Assembly: GCA_902533775.1 (NCBI GenBank)
Contig: CACANA010000003.1
Span: forward strand, 1-54,109
Direction of reading: 5' to 3'
From: an uncultured Pelagibacteraceae bacterium
Lineage (GTDB): Bacteria > Pseudomonadota > Alphaproteobacteria > Pelagibacterales > Pelagibacteraceae
DNA: 54,109 nt
Of the stretch, positions 2,771 to 44,700 are shown piece by piece. Under the pieces are notes generated by a model that had not been told where the DNA came from, ran no database searches, and was given only the letters and a program-made list of their open reading frames with translations. The position numbers were made by a program, and so were the translations under genes. Positions within the stretch are counted from its first letter, which is position 1, and each line of letters opens with the position of its first letter.

Positions 2771-3930
2771 TTTATTTCATTACAAACTTTGCTAATAATT
2801 TTTAAAGCTATATCAATTTCTCTTTTTGTTACATTTAATGGAGGCAAAATTCGTATGACATTTTCAGCTGCTCTAATGGTCAATAATTTATTTTCCATTA
2901 ATTTTTTTATAAACTCAGTTTGATCCTTAAAAAGTTGTAAACCAATTAATAGTCCTACTCCTCTGACCTCTTTAATTACCTGGGGAAATTTAATTTTTAT
3001 TTTATTAAGTTCATGAATAAAATATTTTGACATTTTGTTCACGTTAATTAATAAATTCTTATTTATTTGATCTAAAACAGCGTTACCCACTGCCATTGCA
3101 AGAGGATTTCCACCAAATGTTGAACCATGTGTACCTGGTACCATAGCTTTTGCAACTTTCTTTGTCATTAGGACTGCACCGATGGGAAAGCCGCCTCCAA
3201 TTCCTTTCGCTATGGGGACTATATCAGGTTTAACCTTTGAATGTTCAAAAGCAAAAAATTTACCTGATCTTCCAATACCACACTGAACCTCATCAAGAAT
3301 TAAAAGTATTCTTCTTTGATTGCATATTTTTCTAATTGCTTTTATGCACCAATTTGGAATTACTTTAATTCCTCCCTCACCCATAACTGGTTCAAGCATA
3401 ATAGCCGCTGTATTTTTTTTAATCAATTTTTTTAGTTTTTTGTGATCACCAAATTCAAAATGATCAAAGCCTGGAACTTTTGGCCCAAATCCTTGTGTCA
3501 TTTTTTTTGACCCGCTTGCATGTATTGTTGCAATTGTTCTGCCATGAAAAGAATTCTTTATACAAATAATTCTATTTTTATGCTCCTTGCCTATTGAATA
3601 AAAATATCTCCTAGCAACTTTGATAGCCGCTTCAGTAGCTTCAGCACCACTATTTTGAAAAATTATTGCGTCTGCAAAAGTTTTTTTTACTAATTTTCCA
3701 GCTAATTTTTCGCCCTCTGGTATTCTAAATGCATTTGACACGTGCCAAAGTTTTTTCGATTGTTTATTAATTGCACTTATGAGCTTTTTATTTGCATGTC
3801 CAAGAGAATTTACTGCAATACCCTGAACAAAATCTAAGTATTTTTTACCATCTTTAGTAAAAAGATAACTTCCTTTCCCTCTTACAAATGATAAATTTTT
3901 TCTTTTATAATTGTTTGCGAGCGCGGACAT
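2767..3930 (-). CDS. argD: Acetylornithine aminotransferase
   Basis: ArgD is a PLP-dependent class III aminotransferase converting N-acetylglutamate semialdehyde to N-acetylornithine, and often also serving in lysine/DAP synthesis (DapC activity). The 387-residue ORF shows the phosphate-site QNSGAEATEAAIKVAR (about residue 93), the cofactor aspartate in LDEVQCGIGRSGKFFAFEH, the Schiff-base lysine in IAKGIGGGFPIGAVL and the C-terminal RLLPPLNV-like RILPPLNVTKREID. First gene of the argD-argF pair. The ATG at 3930 fits the family N-terminus. The 163-nt gap to gcrA must hold both divergent promoters. Confidence 0.95.
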   Translation of the reverse strand: MSALANNYKRKNLSFVRGKGSYLFTKDGKKYLDFVQGIAVNSLGHANKKLISAINKQSKKLWHVSNAFRIPEGEKLAGKLVKKTFADAIIFQNSGAEATEAAIKVARRYFYSIGKEHKNRIICIKNSFHGRTIATIHASGSKKMTQGFGPKVPGFDHFEFGDHKKLKKLIKKNTAAIMLEPVMGEGGIKVIPNWCIKAIRKICNQRRILLILDEVQCGIGRSGKFFAFEHSKVKPDIVPIAKGIGGGFPIGAVLMTKKVAKAMVPGTHGSTFGGNPLAMAVGNAVLDQINKNLLINVNKMSKYFIHELNKIKIKFPQVIKEVRGVGLLIGLQLFKDQTEFIKKLMENKLLTIRAAENVIRILPPLNVTKREIDIALKIISKVCNEIK

Positions 3931-4093
3931 ATTTACTTATAATTTTTTTTAGTTTTAATTAAAGTGTAATTTACAACCTCAAGTTATAAATTTATCCTGA
4001 TTGTTGAAAAATAAAAAAAAAAACTTGTATTAGTTTTCTATTATGCCACATGATGTTATTTATTAAATTTTACATACTAAATATGGTAAATTA

Positions 4094-36224: not shown

Positions 36225-36299
36225 TGGTGGGCCGTGTTGGTTACGCTCCAACTACCCCTGCAATGTCAATGCAGTACTCTACTATTGAGCTAACGGCCC
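36225..36299 (-). tRNA. tRNA-Val(GAC) with atypical D- and T-loops
   Basis: GGGCCGT-TA-GCTC-AATAGTA-GAGT-A-CTGCA-TTGACAT-TGCAG-GGGTA-GTTGG-AGCGTAA-CCAAC-ACGGCCC-ACCA (given in short segments). All four stems pair, CCA is encoded and the anticodon is GAC (Val, GUC/GUU). The T-loop is AGCGTAA instead of the near-universal TTCRANY and the D-loop AATAGTA lacks one of the two conserved G residues. Its first base is the G of the rpoD stop codon TAG, so it is probably released from the rpoD transcript. Stems fully paired argue against a decayed gene. Confidence 0.85.
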
Positions 36300-38122
36300 T
36301 AACTTTCTAAGAAACTTTTTAGTTGTTTTGATCTACTTGGATGTTTTAATTTTCTTAGAGCTTTAGCTTCTATTTGTCTAATTCTCTCTCTAGTAACCGA
36401 GAACTGTAATCCGACTTCTTCTAGCGTATGGTCTGTATTCATTCCAACTCCAAACCTCATTCTTAGTACTCTTTCTTCTCTTGGCGTTAAGGTAGATAAA
36501 ATTTTTGTAGTAGCTTCACTTAAGTTTGATTTAATTGCTTGTTCAAGTGGAGCTAGAGCTTTTGTATCTTCTATAAAATCTCCAAGACTGCTATCTTCTT
36601 CATCACCAACAGGTTTTTCTAGCGAAACTGGTTCTTTAGAAATTTTTAAAACTTTTCTAACTTTTTCTAATGGCATCCTCAATTTTTTTGCAAGTTCCTC
36701 AGGTGTTGCCTCTCTTCCAAATTCACTCAAAATCAATCTTTGAGTTCTTACAATTTTATTTATAGTTTCTATCATGTGAACAGGTATCCTAATTGTTCTT
36801 GCTTGGTCTGCTATTGATCTAGTGATAGCTTGCCTTATCCACCAAGTTGCATATGTAGAAAATTTATATCCTCTTCTATATTCAAATTTATCAACAGCTT
36901 TCATCAGGCCTATATTTCCTTCTTGTATTAGATCTAAAAACTGAAGACCTCTATTCGTATATTTTTTTGCAATAGAAATTACCAATCTTAAATTGGCTTC
37001 AACCATTTCTTTTTTTGCAATTCTTGACTCTTTTTCTCCTTTTTGTACTCTACTTACAAGTTTTTTATATTCTGTTACAGATATTCCAAGCTTATTACTT
37101 ATTTCAACTAATCTATCTCTAATATTTTTGAATTCAGATTTATTTTTTTGAAAGAACTTTTTCCAAACATCATTTGTATCTAAAAACTCTTTTAAATTTG
37201 GATTTATTTCATTTCCAACATAAAATTTAATAAATTCATCTCTAGAGATTTTTGACTCTATAGCCAATCTGAGCAGGTTGCCTTCGAGTGAAATTATTTT
37301 TTTGTTTTCCGCATAATGCTTTTGAACAAGTTCCTCTAATACAGATGGTGACAATTGAAGAGATTTGATATGGTCAAGTATATCTTCAACTATTTTTTTA
37401 TAATTTTTTTCTTTAGAAGATGAAAATTTTATAGATTTTAATACACAATCTAGTTTTTCTTTTTGATATTTAATTAATTTATTATATTCTTTTGTAAGTG
37501 TTTTAACTGTATGTAAAACTTTTGGTTTTATCTCCGTTTCCATGGCCGCAAGCGTAGGATTAAATTCATCCTCTTCTGTATTGCTACTCTCTTCTGTAGA
37601 CTGTTCGTCATCTTGCTTTTTTTGTTTTGATCCATTTGTTTCATCATCATCCATATAATTCGTATCGATGTCGATAATTTCTCTTACAAGTATCTCGTCA
37701 TTTTGCAATTTTTGATCCCATTCAAAAAATTGTTGAGCGGTTATGGGGCTTTGGGATAATGCATTTAACATAACATCTTTTCCTGCTTCTATTCTTTTTG
37801 CTATTGCTATTTCTCCCTCTCTAGAGAGAAGTTCTACTCCACCCATTTCTCTTAAATACATCCTTATTGGATCATCACTTTTTTCTAAAGTTTTGCCCTC
37901 ATCTTTTGACGAAGTGTCTTTTTTTCTTAAAACTTTATAGTCTGATTTTTTTTCAACAAGAACTATACTTTCATCCAACATATGAATAAAAGCTTGAGAC
38001 AGATTTTCACTTGATAAATTCCTTTTTCCTAGGGATTTATTTAATTCTTCGTGAGTTATGAAGCCTCGGTGAATACCTCTGCCCATTAACCTCGCAAATG
38101 ATTTTGTAATTATTCTTTCCAC
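36299..38122 (-). CDS. rpoD: RNA polymerase primary sigma factor RpoD (sigma70)
   Basis: The housekeeping sigma factor. Of 607 residues: region 1.1-like N-terminus (about 1-70), region 1.2 [22 protein letters not shown] (about 82-103), a large acidic non-conserved domain (about 115-350), region 2 [62 protein letters not shown] (-10 recognition and melting), region 3, and region 4 [15 protein letters not shown]...[25 protein letters not shown] (-35 recognition). Typical alphaproteobacterial dnaG-rpoD order. Its stop codon TAG overlaps the first base of tRNA-Val. Confidence 0.97.
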
Positions 38123-38187: not shown

Positions 38188-39963
38188 TTAGTTGATTTTT
38201 TGAAGTTTTTTCAACTCTTTTATCTCATTAAATGTTTTTTCGCTCATATCCTGGGAAAACTTCGATTCTAAGTCTGATATTCTTTGCTCCAACTCGTAAT
38301 TTTTAAGATCTTGAATAATTTCACTAAAAATTTCTATAATCTTGTCATCATCATTAAAATTTTTTGAAATTATGTGTTTTACTGATGCATAATTCATAAC
38401 TCTGTTAATAAGATTTTTGTCTACGCTCAATTTATCTACATTTAAATTTAATAAATTTTTTGATTGAATTAAAATTTCTTGAAATAATTGTTTATTTTCG
38501 TGACTGTATAATTTTATGTTATCTATTAAATGAAAATTTTTATGAATTAATTTTGATTTGGTGATTAATATATATAAAAAAGAAAACTCTTTAATTTCAA
38601 AAGATTTTAGTGATTTTGTTTCATTATAATAACTTTTAGTTTTAGCTAAAGATTTTGGAAATGTTTTATAATATTTCTTATATTTTAAATTAATATTTGG
38701 TGTTAAATCTGAAATTTTTTCAAGGAAATATTCTAGCGTGTATTTTTTAACAAATGTGTCTTTGATATTTGATGCAATTTCTCTTAATTTTTTTTCAAAA
38801 ATAGCTTTCGAGCTTGGACTTTCGTTTGTTTGACTCATGTAATGTTCAAATATAAATTTATGTATAGGAATAGATCTTTGGTCAGAAATTTCTATAAACT
38901 TATCTTTACCAAATTTATTTACATAATTATCTGGATCCAAATTATTTTCTAATAGCAGAAATGAAATTTTTTTATCTGGTTTTAATTCATCAATTATATT
39001 CTCTGCTGCTCTTAATGCAGCTTTATAACCACTTTGATCGCCATCAAAACAAATAATGATATGATTATAAAATTGATTTAAAATTTGTATCTGTTTATTT
39101 GTTAAAGCAGTTCCTAAGTTTGCGACAGTATTTTCTATTCCATTTTTTGATAAACCAATAACATCCATGTATCCTTCAACTAAATATACATCTTCTAATT
39201 TATTTGATAGCTTTCTTGCCTTATCAAGATTATATAAATTTGACCCTTTTTTGAAAAAAGGTGTCTCAGGTGAATTTATATATTTAGCCAAATTTTTATT
39301 ATCATCTACAATTCTTCCTCCAAAACCTATAATATTTCCTGATATATTATTTATTGGAAAAATTATTCTGTTTCTAAATCTTGATATATATTTTTTTTTC
39401 TTCTCATCAAAATAAAATAAACCTGTATCTCTAATGATTTCTTCGTCAAAATCTTTTTTTAGGATCTCATAATAATCTAAATCCTCTGTTACAAAACCAA
39501 GATTAAAATTTTTAACTTCGGCACCAGACAGTCCTCTCGCTTTAAGGTAATTTTTTGCCTTAATTGAATTTTCATTTTTGAATAATTCATTTTTATAAAA
39601 TTCGGAAAAATTACTACATATAGCTTTATATATTTTCCATTTATTCTCTCTTTCCTCATCTTGTTTTGAAAATGTATAAGGTTGCATACCGGCAAGATTT
39701 GAAAGAATTTTGACAGCTTCACCAAATCTAAGATTTTGAGTTTTCATTACAAAATCAAAAATATTTCCGTGCTCACTTGTGCTAAAGCAATGATAAAATT
39801 CTTTTTCATCATTCACAGTGAATGATGGAGTTTTCTCAGTTTTAAACGGAGATAAACCAACAAACTCCTTGCCTCTCTTTTTAAGTTTAACAGTTTTAGA
39901 AACTACTGTTGAAACTTTTAGTCTGGTTTTAATTTCGTCTAAATATTCTTTTGGATATTTCAT
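38188..39963 (-). CDS. dnaG: DNA primase DnaG (degenerate zinc finger)
   Basis: DnaG makes RNA primers at the replication fork. The 591-residue ORF has the N-terminal CHC2-type domain (KTEKTPSFTVNDEKEFYHCF, about residues 42-61), the RNA polymerase domain (YLKARGLSGAEVKNFNLGF, FRNRIIFPINNISGNIIGFGGRI) and the TOPRIM domain with catalytic VEGYMDVIGL and CFDGDQSGYKAALRA, then a helical C-terminal domain that would meet DnaB. Compared with E. coli C40, H43, C61, C64, the aligned residues are S, K, C and T, so three of four zinc ligands are absent. Shares one nucleotide with the yqeY stop and lies upstream of rpoD. Confidence 0.95.
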   Translation of the reverse strand: MKYPKEYLDEIKTRLKVSTVVSKTVKLKKRGKEFVGLSPFKTEKTPSFTVNDEKEFYHCFSTSEHGNIFDFVMKTQNLRFGEAVKILSNLAGMQPYTFSKQDEERENKWKIYKAICSNFSEFYKNELFKNENSIKAKNYLKARGLSGAEVKNFNLGFVTEDLDYYEILKKDFDEEIIRDTGLFYFDEKKKKYISRFRNRIIFPINNISGNIIGFGGRIVDDNKNLAKYINSPETPFFKKGSNLYNLDKARKLSNKLEDVYLVEGYMDVIGLSKNGIENTVANLGTALTNKQIQILNQFYNHIIICFDGDQSGYKAALRAAENIIDELKPDKKISFLLLENNLDPDNYVNKFGKDKFIEISDQRSIPIHKFIFEHYMSQTNESPSSKAIFEKKLREIASNIKDTFVKKYTLEYFLEKISDLTPNINLKYKKYYKTFPKSLAKTKSYYNETKSLKSFEIKEFSFLYILITKSKLIHKNFHLIDNIKLYSHENKQLFQEILIQSKNLLNLNVDKLSVDKNLINRVMNYASVKHIISKNFNDDDKIIEIFSEIIQDLKNYELEQRISDLESKFSQDMSEKTFNEIKELKKLQKIN

Positions 39964-41739: not shown

Positions 41740-44700
41740 AAAAATTTTAGTGATTGGAGCTGGTCCAATTATTATAGGTCAAGCTTGTGAATTTGATTAT
41801 TCAGGAACACAAGCATGCAAAGCATTAAAAGATGAGGGTTATAAAGTAATATTAATAAACTCAAATCCAGCAACTATAATGACTGATCCTGGTGTTGCTG
41901 ATAAAACTTATATTGAACCAATATCACTGGAAGTATTGGAAGAGGTTATCAAAAAAGAGAAGCCTGATGCTATTCTACCAACAATGGGAGGTCAAACAGC
42001 ATTAAATCTTGCAATTAACGCAGAAAAAATCGGATTGCTTAAAAAGTATAAAATTGAACTGATAGGAGCTAACTCCAAAGCAATAGCGAATGCTGAGGAT
42101 AGAAAAAAATTTAGAAAGAATATGTCTGATATTGGTATTGATTTACCAAAATCAGAAGTTCTAAATAAATTTTCAAACGCAAAAAAATGCTTAAATAAGA
42201 TTGGTCTTCCTGCAATTATTAGACCTTCATTTACTTTAGGTGGATTAGGTGGAGGTATTGCAAGAACAAAAAAAGATTTTTTTAAAATTGTTAAAGAAGG
42301 AATGAATGAATCTCCTCAAAATCAGGTTCTGGTTGAGGAATGTTTAGACGGTTGGAAAGAATTTGAGATGGAGGTCGTTAGAGATAAAAATGATAATTGT
42401 ATAATTATCTGTTCAATAGAAAATGTTGATCCCATGGGAACTCATACTGGTGACTCTGTTACTATAGCTCCAGCATTAACACTTACAGATAAAGAGTATC
42501 AAGTAATGAGAAATGCATCTATTGCTTGCTTAAGAAAAATAGGTGTTGAGACAGGAGGTTCGAATGTTCAATTCGCCATAAATCCAAAAAATGGAAGAAT
42601 GGTAATTATTGAAATGAACCCCAGAGTTTCAAGATCATCTGCATTAGCCTCTAAAGCGACTGGCTTTCCAATAGCAAAAGTGGCCGCAAAATTAGCAGTT
42701 GGTTATACTCTTGATGAACTACAAAATGAAATAACTAAAGTAACACCAGCTTCTTTTGAACCAACAATCGATTATGTTGTAACAAAAATTCCAAGGTTTA
42801 CGTTTGAAAAATTTTCTGACACAGAAGCAATTTTAGGCACATCCATGAGATCAGTTGGTGAAGCAATGGCAATTGGGAGAAACTTCAAAGAGTCTTTTCA
42901 AAAAGCCCTGGTTTCACTTGAAACTGGTTTATCAGGATTAGATAATATTTTTAACTATTCAAAAAAAGAAATCCTTAAAAATTTAAAAATCAATATTCCA
43001 AACAAATTACTTCTGATTGCTGAGGCTTTTAGAAAAAAAATTTCTTTTGATATTATATATAAATTATCAAAGGTAGATCCTTGGTTTTTAAATCAAATTA
43101 AGGAAATAGTTGATGAAGAAAAAATACTAATCTCAAAAGGACTGCCTAAAACTTTTGAGGAATTTAATAAAATAAAATCAATAGGCTTTTCTGACAAAAA
43201 GATCTCACAATTGACTGGTCAAAAAGAAACAATCGTCAAATCAAGAAGAAAAGCGCTAAAAGTTATGCCTGTTTTTAAAAAAGTTGATACCTGTGCTGCA
43301 GAATTTAAATCTTTTACACCTTATATGTATTCTACTTATCAAAGAAATTTTTCTATTAAAACTGAATGCGAAGCTGAGCCAAGCAATAAAAAGAAAATAA
43401 TAATTCTAGGTGGAGGACCAAATAGAATTGGACAAGGTATAGAGTTTGATTATTGCTGTTGTCAGGCTAGCTTTTCTTTAAAAGAAGCAGGTTTTGAAAC
43501 AATAATGATAAATTGTAACCCGGAAACTGTTTCTACAGATTATGATACAAGTGATAGATTGTACTTTGAACCTTTAATTGAAGAGTATGTTGAGAATATA
43601 ATTTTAAAAGAAAAATCAAAAGGAAATCTAATAGGGATTATTGCACAATTTGGAGGCCAAACCCCTATCAAATTAGCTAAATTTTTAGATGAAAATAAAT
43701 TACCTATTTTAGGGACACAGTATAAATCAATAGACCTTGCAGAAGATAGAGACAGATTTAGAGAGTTACTTATAAAGCTTAAATTAAAACAAGCTGAAAG
43801 TGGTATAGCCTACAAATTTGATCAAGCTATTAATGTTGCTGAAAAAATTGGATTACCAGTAGTTGTGCGACCTTCTTATGTTTTGGGAGGAAGAGCTATG
43901 GAAATTGTTCATGACAAAAGTCAATTGAAACAATTTATTAATGAGGCCTTCAAAGCATCAGAACAAAATCCAATCTTAATTGATAAATTTATCGACAATG
44001 CAATGGAAGTAGATGTAGATGCAATTTCTGACGGAAAAGACGTTTATGTTGCTGGAATAATGCAACATATTGAAGAAGCTGGGATTCACTCAGGAGACTC
44101 TGCTTGTTGCTTGCCGCCGGTATCAATAAAGGCAAATCTTTTAAGAGAACTTAAAATACAAACAAGAAAATTAGCTCTGGCTTTAAAGGTTAAAGGATTT
44201 TTAAATATTCAATTCGCAATTAAAAATGATGAAATTTTTGTCATTGAAGTTAATCCTAGAGCAAGCAGAACTGTACCCTTTGTTTCAAAAGCAAACGGTA
44301 TTCCACTTGCAAAAATTGCATCAAGAATAATGTCTGGGGAAAAATTAAGTAAGTATAAATTAAAATACAAAACCAATAAAAAATTTGCTGTTAAGGAAGC
44401 AGTATTTCCATTCAATAAATTTCCAGATAGTGATTTATTACTTGGCCCTGAGATGAAGTCTACTGGTGAGGTAATGGGTTTTGATGACGATTTTGGAATG
44501 GCTGTTGCAAAAAGTCAAATTGCTGCTTCTAATTCATTGCCAACTAAAGGAATGGCATTCTTATCAGTAAAAGACTCTCACAAGCAAGAAATAATAGGTG
44601 TTGCACAAAGATTAATAAAACTTGGATTCACACTTTCTGCAACCAAAGGAACGTCAGAGATTCTAAATCAAAATGGAATGAAATGTAAAAAAATTAATAA

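Follow-up and report, generated by a model that had tools for sequence, protein, structure and literature searches.

The dnaG locus and its product

The window, that is, the whole 54,109-nucleotide stretch of contig CACANA010000003.1 analysed here, comes from an uncultured Pelagibacteraceae bacterium (assembly GCA_902533775.1) and encodes the DNA primase DnaG on its reverse strand. The gene adjoins rpoD, an arrangement common to most relatives. The features considered are listed below, with the ligand positions given in E. coli numbering.

38188..39963, (-): dnaG, DNA primase, 591 aa, ATG start, TAA stop; TIGR01391 403 bits, with PF01807, PF08275 and Toprim matches
39673..39963, (-): N-terminal 'zinc-binding' domain without a zinc site, residues 1-97; PF01807 100 bits at 4-94, pLDDT 93, 0.8 Å rmsd to 1D0Q, pN/pS 0.08
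39841..39852, (-): S38-P-F-K41, at the positions of ligands C40 and H43 (sequence; gap-free alignment to 1D0Q)
39778..39789, (-): C59-F-S61-T62, at the positions of ligand C61, G63 and ligand C64 (sequence; column comparison)
39772..39774, (-): E64, E. coli position 66, mostly Ala in zinc-type primases and Glu or Lys in 49 of 53 zinc-less ones
38689..39672, (-): linker plus RNA polymerase (Toprim) domain; motifs RFRNRI (195), GFGGR (213), EGYMD (263) and DGD (307) intact
36299..38122, (-): rpoD, the next gene downstream of dnaG, an independent marker for trees

By family, the open reading frame is a DnaG. It scores 403.4 bits with the full-length TIGR01391 model, against a curated cut-off of 283.6, and the PF01807, DNAG_N and Toprim profiles all match it. 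The Toprim catalytic motifs EGYMD (263) and DGD (307) are present, as is the basic motif RFRNRI (195). PF01807 has a single match in the window genome, which is the only DnaG found; a second, zinc-type DnaG was sought with this profile and not found in the assembly, which is 73.9% complete.

The N-terminal domain of the protein reads GLSPFKTEKTPSFTVNDEKEFYHCFSTSEHGN. PF01807 recognises it with 100 bits (cut-off, 24.9), and its predicted fold is the ribbon. The positions of the zinc ligands C40, H43, C61 and C64 are occupied by S38, K41, C59 and T62, that is, by S-K-C-T instead of the C-H-C-C of the CHC2 zinc ribbon. Because the four ligands after which the domain is named are not in place, its sequence argues against classing it among zinc-binding domains. 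The preliminary description of this locus had reported the replacement of C40, H43 and C64 by S, K and T, and the reading frame and its alignment to 1D0Q, the solved zinc domain of the Bacillus stearothermophilus primase, bear this out, with no gap across the site. Displacement of the ligands by a few residues, which that description had itself raised, is excluded by the gap-free alignment, in which no displaced Cys or His was found near the former site of the window domain, and by the scarcity of other cysteines (outside the four ligand positions, a mean of 0.02 per zinc-less domain versus 0.32 per zinc-type domain). Sequencing or assembly error is ruled out by the occurrence of S-K-C-T in 80 out of 80 named Pelagibacteraceae loci and by a codon-level comparison of 81 orthologues, the window included, in which these residues never change although the codons for them do.

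Distribution of the zinc-less state

The domain was located in 373 out of 387 alphaproteobacterial genomes, and the site was examined residue by residue in 221. All four ligands were present in 170 of these, while three or four were lost in the other 51, with 44 retaining C61 alone and 7 retaining no ligand. No intermediates with one or two ligands lost were found among the 221 genomes; the zinc site of alphaproteobacterial DnaG is all or nothing. Throughout, the zinc-less form has Ser at 40, one of K, N, T, Q, S, A or G at 43, Cys or Asp at 61 and Ser or Thr at 64. Four loci (L170, L243, L248 and L249) encode fast-evolving zinc-less domains that have also lost H60 or H67, as in FKDFSSGLGGD of family f126. 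Beyond the class, a search of ~230 non-alphaproteobacterial genomes with a strict zinc-less pattern found no zinc-less primase in other Pseudomonadota, and its sole match from another class retains C-H-C-C.

All 109 primases located in Pelagibacterales, spanning two families, are zinc-less, and zinc is very low in the surface ocean (PMC4771312). Both facts agree with the idea, put forward in the preliminary description as an adaptation to low-metal ocean water, that SAR11 dropped the site to save metal where zinc is poor. However, the same state occurs in terrestrial and freshwater lineages, in Methylobacterium bullatum (whose domain is identical outside the motif to that of genome G238, family f59), in the Caulobacter phage Sansa and in families with 3-9 Mb genomes, while Rhodobacterales (Paracoccus, f19) and Sphingomonadales retain all four ligands. 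C-H-C-C was observed in Sphingomonas, Tistrella, Paracoccus, Shinella and Sinorhizobium. Moreover, published SAR11 genomes spare high-affinity zinc uptake from their metal minimisation (PMC4771312), and other candidate zinc proteins remain in the window genome: Cx2C pairs, named by eye and not by profile search in 439 kb (~45% of that genome), point to an MsrB-like protein, a prepilin-peptidase-like fragment, a Fur-like regulator and AlaRS. Given the sharing with terrestrial and freshwater lineages, the zinc site of Rhodobacterales and the zinc uptake of SAR11, the ocean explanation fails, and we regard it as highly improbable. By analogy with the ribosome, a class-wide zinc-free tendency would fit better than ocean scarcity.

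Some individual loci deserve mention. The primase of phage Sansa (L377, KT001913.1, 60711-62567) is host-like and zinc-less (S-T-C-S), nearest to the Caulobacter-type family f53; phages could move the zinc-less form from host to host. Three Rhizobiaceae primases (Sinorhizobium L378, Shinella L374 and L312) have C-H-C-C and a catalytic part near those of zinc-less families, so their zinc site was either retained or regained; regain in Rhizobiaceae via domain exchange was considered, and no clear donor was found. In L378 (CP090106.1, labelled pSymB of S. meliloti Ak57), carA, yqeY and dnaG lie on a plasmid-labelled record, and the gene downstream of dnaG is recQ, not rpoD. Finally, contig C187 of the fragmented genome G287 encodes two DnaG zinc domains ~38 kb apart (3667-3945 and 42027-42305), in long open frames.

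Residues that change with the site

We compared the alignment columns of 53 zinc-less and 130 zinc-type primases. Five columns separate the two classes (40, 43, 63, 64 and 66), through the changes C40S, H43 to K/N/T/Q/S/A/G, G63S/A, C64S/T and usually A66E/K, the last with Glu or Lys in 49 out of 53 zinc-less primases. Each switch involves these five positions again, so the replacement is stereotyped. No column elsewhere in the whole DnaG separates the classes as strongly, and a search of the RNA polymerase domain for a class-separating change found none near the strength of these five. Residues 43 and 64 covary: Thr64 accompanies Lys43, and Ser64 accompanies the other residues at 43 (p = 6e-5, computed on family genotypes that are not fully independent). 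This confinement to five columns and the 43/64 covariance suggest a switch that is local and correlated, as would be expected if side chains replace the metal.

Cys or Asp is found at position 61 in all 53 zinc-less sequences, and H60 and H67 are each found in 50 out of 53. C61, H60, H67 and E45 persist and could in principle form another metal site. A relocated site, with zinc or some other metal held by C61 (or D61) together with H60, H67 or E66, would account for this persistence, yet most zinc-type sister sequences share H60 and H67, which are hence not new, position 66 is Lys as often as Glu, and the adjacent strand residues 60 and 61 probably face opposite sides. In addition, family f126 lacks both H60 and H67, so an alternative site on these residues would not be general. 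We consider such a site very unlikely and favour a domain that does without metal.

Position 66, beside the zinc motif, may bear on substrate choice. In the Clostridium difficile primase, a residue that would lie near this position is reported to set trinucleotide preference (PMC5204125). Since Glu or Lys appears at this position at nearly every switch, the switch might change how template start sites are read, making zinc-free primases a functional class that may prime on different trinucleotides; we advance this tentatively and think it unlikely.

Recurrence of the switch

Trees were built from the catalytic part of DnaG and from the neighbouring rpoD, excluding the N-terminal domain. The number of state changes needed was 14 with both markers, 12 with RpoD alone, 17 with DnaG alone and 9 once the fastest lineages were left out, in a subset of 49 rows; the exact count is uncertain, since quick trees with long AT-rich branches underlie several placements. 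A single clade of zinc-less rows was rejected by the AU test (p = 2e-61), which rules out one origin for the whole class, while a large 'crown' group as one origin was not rejected (p = 0.11). Switches are also seen within families: in f24, G023 (a complete single-contig genome) is zinc-less and G133 is zinc-type, and in f97 the zinc-less G260 (a fragmented assembly) contrasts with G097 and G185. The clearest further separate cases are f89 versus f134, f66 versus f81, the SAR11 order and the crown. On a conservative reading, these sequences point to at least six independent switches in Alphaproteobacteria. Loss of the zinc site is the likely direction of change, given that the zinc form is found in E. 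coli, B. stearothermophilus and Aquifex. The preliminary description proposed aligning alphaproteobacterial DnaG to time the loss; the trees require 9-17 switches, depending on the data used. That description had missed that the switch is recurrent and all-or-nothing, and that it also involves positions 63 and 66.

The codons of the new serines differ between lineages. Ser40 is encoded by TCN in all members of f1, the family of the window, and by AGY in all members of f223, its sister family in the same order. No single substitution joins the TCN and AGY serine codons. The contrast hints at two separate losses within Pelagibacterales. Ser63 is encoded by AGY in SAR11 and mostly by TCN elsewhere, and codon usage at both serines would agree with separate routes between lineages.

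A single invention, in which a zinc-less domain arose once in an ancestor and then travelled by gene transfer or domain swapping, would explain why zinc-less domains are more alike than their catalytic identity predicts, also outside the motif (0.61-0.67; zinc pairs of the same bins, 0.52-0.61), and the phage Sansa primase offers a possible vehicle. Nevertheless, the G023 domain outside the motif is nearest to a zinc-type domain (0.82), the Ser40 and Ser63 codon boxes differ between lineages, and the rpoD genes adjoining dnaG give the same scatter of zinc-less rows. A single invention therefore appears rather improbable, and domain import is not favoured by the sequences as a general cause; repeated change in place is the reading we retain.

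Constraint and predicted fold

A codon comparison of 81 full-length gap-free orthologues, the window included, showed that the four site residues and their neighbours are invariant, although the codons encoding them vary. Within the window DnaG, conservation is strongest in the N-terminal domain (pN/pS of 0.079, versus 0.26 in the rest of the protein), and a domain under the strongest constraint in its protein is not decaying. Decay towards dispensability would be in line with the loss of ligands in zinc-less primases and with mitochondrial Twinkle, a case showing that such changes can go with a loss of primase functions (PMC3610141). Besides the constraint, it is opposed by the lack of partial ligand loss in any sequence from the 221 genomes, the intact catalytic motifs and the finding of no other DnaG in the 73.9% complete genome, and we give it almost no credence.

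The domain was also modelled, as the preliminary description had suggested, with AlphaFold and an input alignment of zinc-less sequences only. The ribbon was predicted with a pLDDT of 93, and the best match among solved structures was 1D0Q (E 2.5e-10, 0.8 Å). As a control, a model of the zinc-type relative G133 also had 1D0Q as its top match. AlphaFold often retains the fold of a metal site without the metal, and the model offers weak support for metal-free stability. The earlier proposal that the fold was kept, zinc was lost and the primase is zinc-free stands as far as the canonical site is gone while the predicted fold and purifying selection persist; a zinc-free primase is the best reading of sequence and model.

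A putative metal-free primase ribbon

We consider it probable that the zinc ribbon of the window DnaG is a form that works without metal; as far as sequence can show, the domain behaves like a DnaG N-terminal domain. In this lineage the four-ligand site was exchanged as a whole: Ser stands in for Cys40, Lys for His43, Ser or Ala for Gly63 and Thr or Ser for Cys64. Position 66 carries Glu or Lys, and Cys61 is usually retained. Small polar side chains and the charged residue may form hydrogen bonds across the former site and so stabilise the knuckles in place of the metal. The domain would still recognise the template trinucleotide and cooperate in trans with the RNA polymerase domain. A general relief from structural zinc was probably the motive, rather than oceanic metal scarcity, in keeping with the class-wide replacement of zinc-binding ribosomal proteins.

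Reviews describe the four ligands of DnaG, three Cys and one His, as highly conserved and see the zinc as sensing and stabilising the DNA-binding motif (PMC6163395). No report of DnaG zinc-ligand loss was found in full-text searches of papers outside subscription journals, and we regard the novelty of a metal-free DnaG zinc ribbon as provisional. By these data, replication with a primase devoid of the zinc site would span many free-living bacteria, including one of the ocean's most abundant and relatives of Caulobacter, a model for the cell cycle. The role of zinc in DnaG becomes testable with natural zinc and zinc-free primases, even within one family (G023 and G133).

Comparison with known systems

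The window DnaG shares with bacterial DnaG bearing the CHC2 zinc ribbon (PF01807, TIGR01391; 1D0Q, 2AU3) its domain order, fold, catalytic motifs, dnaG-rpoD neighbourhood and a gap-free ribbon alignment; it differs in the replacement of three of the four ligands (all four in some relatives) and in matching changes at 63 and 66. In animal mitochondrial Twinkle, the zinc site is among the changes in the primase part. Twinkle is a T7-type primase-helicase that has changes in this part (PMC3610141); it lost primase activity, whereas in the window DnaG the catalytic motifs and a strong constraint persist.

In Alphaproteobacteria, nearly all zinc-binding ribosomal proteins have been replaced by zinc-free forms (PMC3087516), and the metal-free primase ribbon would extend this trend from ribosomes to the replication machinery. 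The C-minus ribosomal proteins (such as S4 and the L31/L36 paralogues; PMC3087516, PMC5912738) likewise passed from a zinc ribbon to a metal-free form several independent times. They differ from the present case in that the latter concerns a replicative primase, for which a second copy of the zinc type was not found, and in sister contrasts that look like in-place changes. Repeated replacement of the zinc site with the fold kept, here as predicted, characterises the zinc-less DnaG as it does C-minus variants, and the recurrent metal-free DnaG ribbon would thus be comparable, by analogy, to the zinc-free ribosomal proteins.
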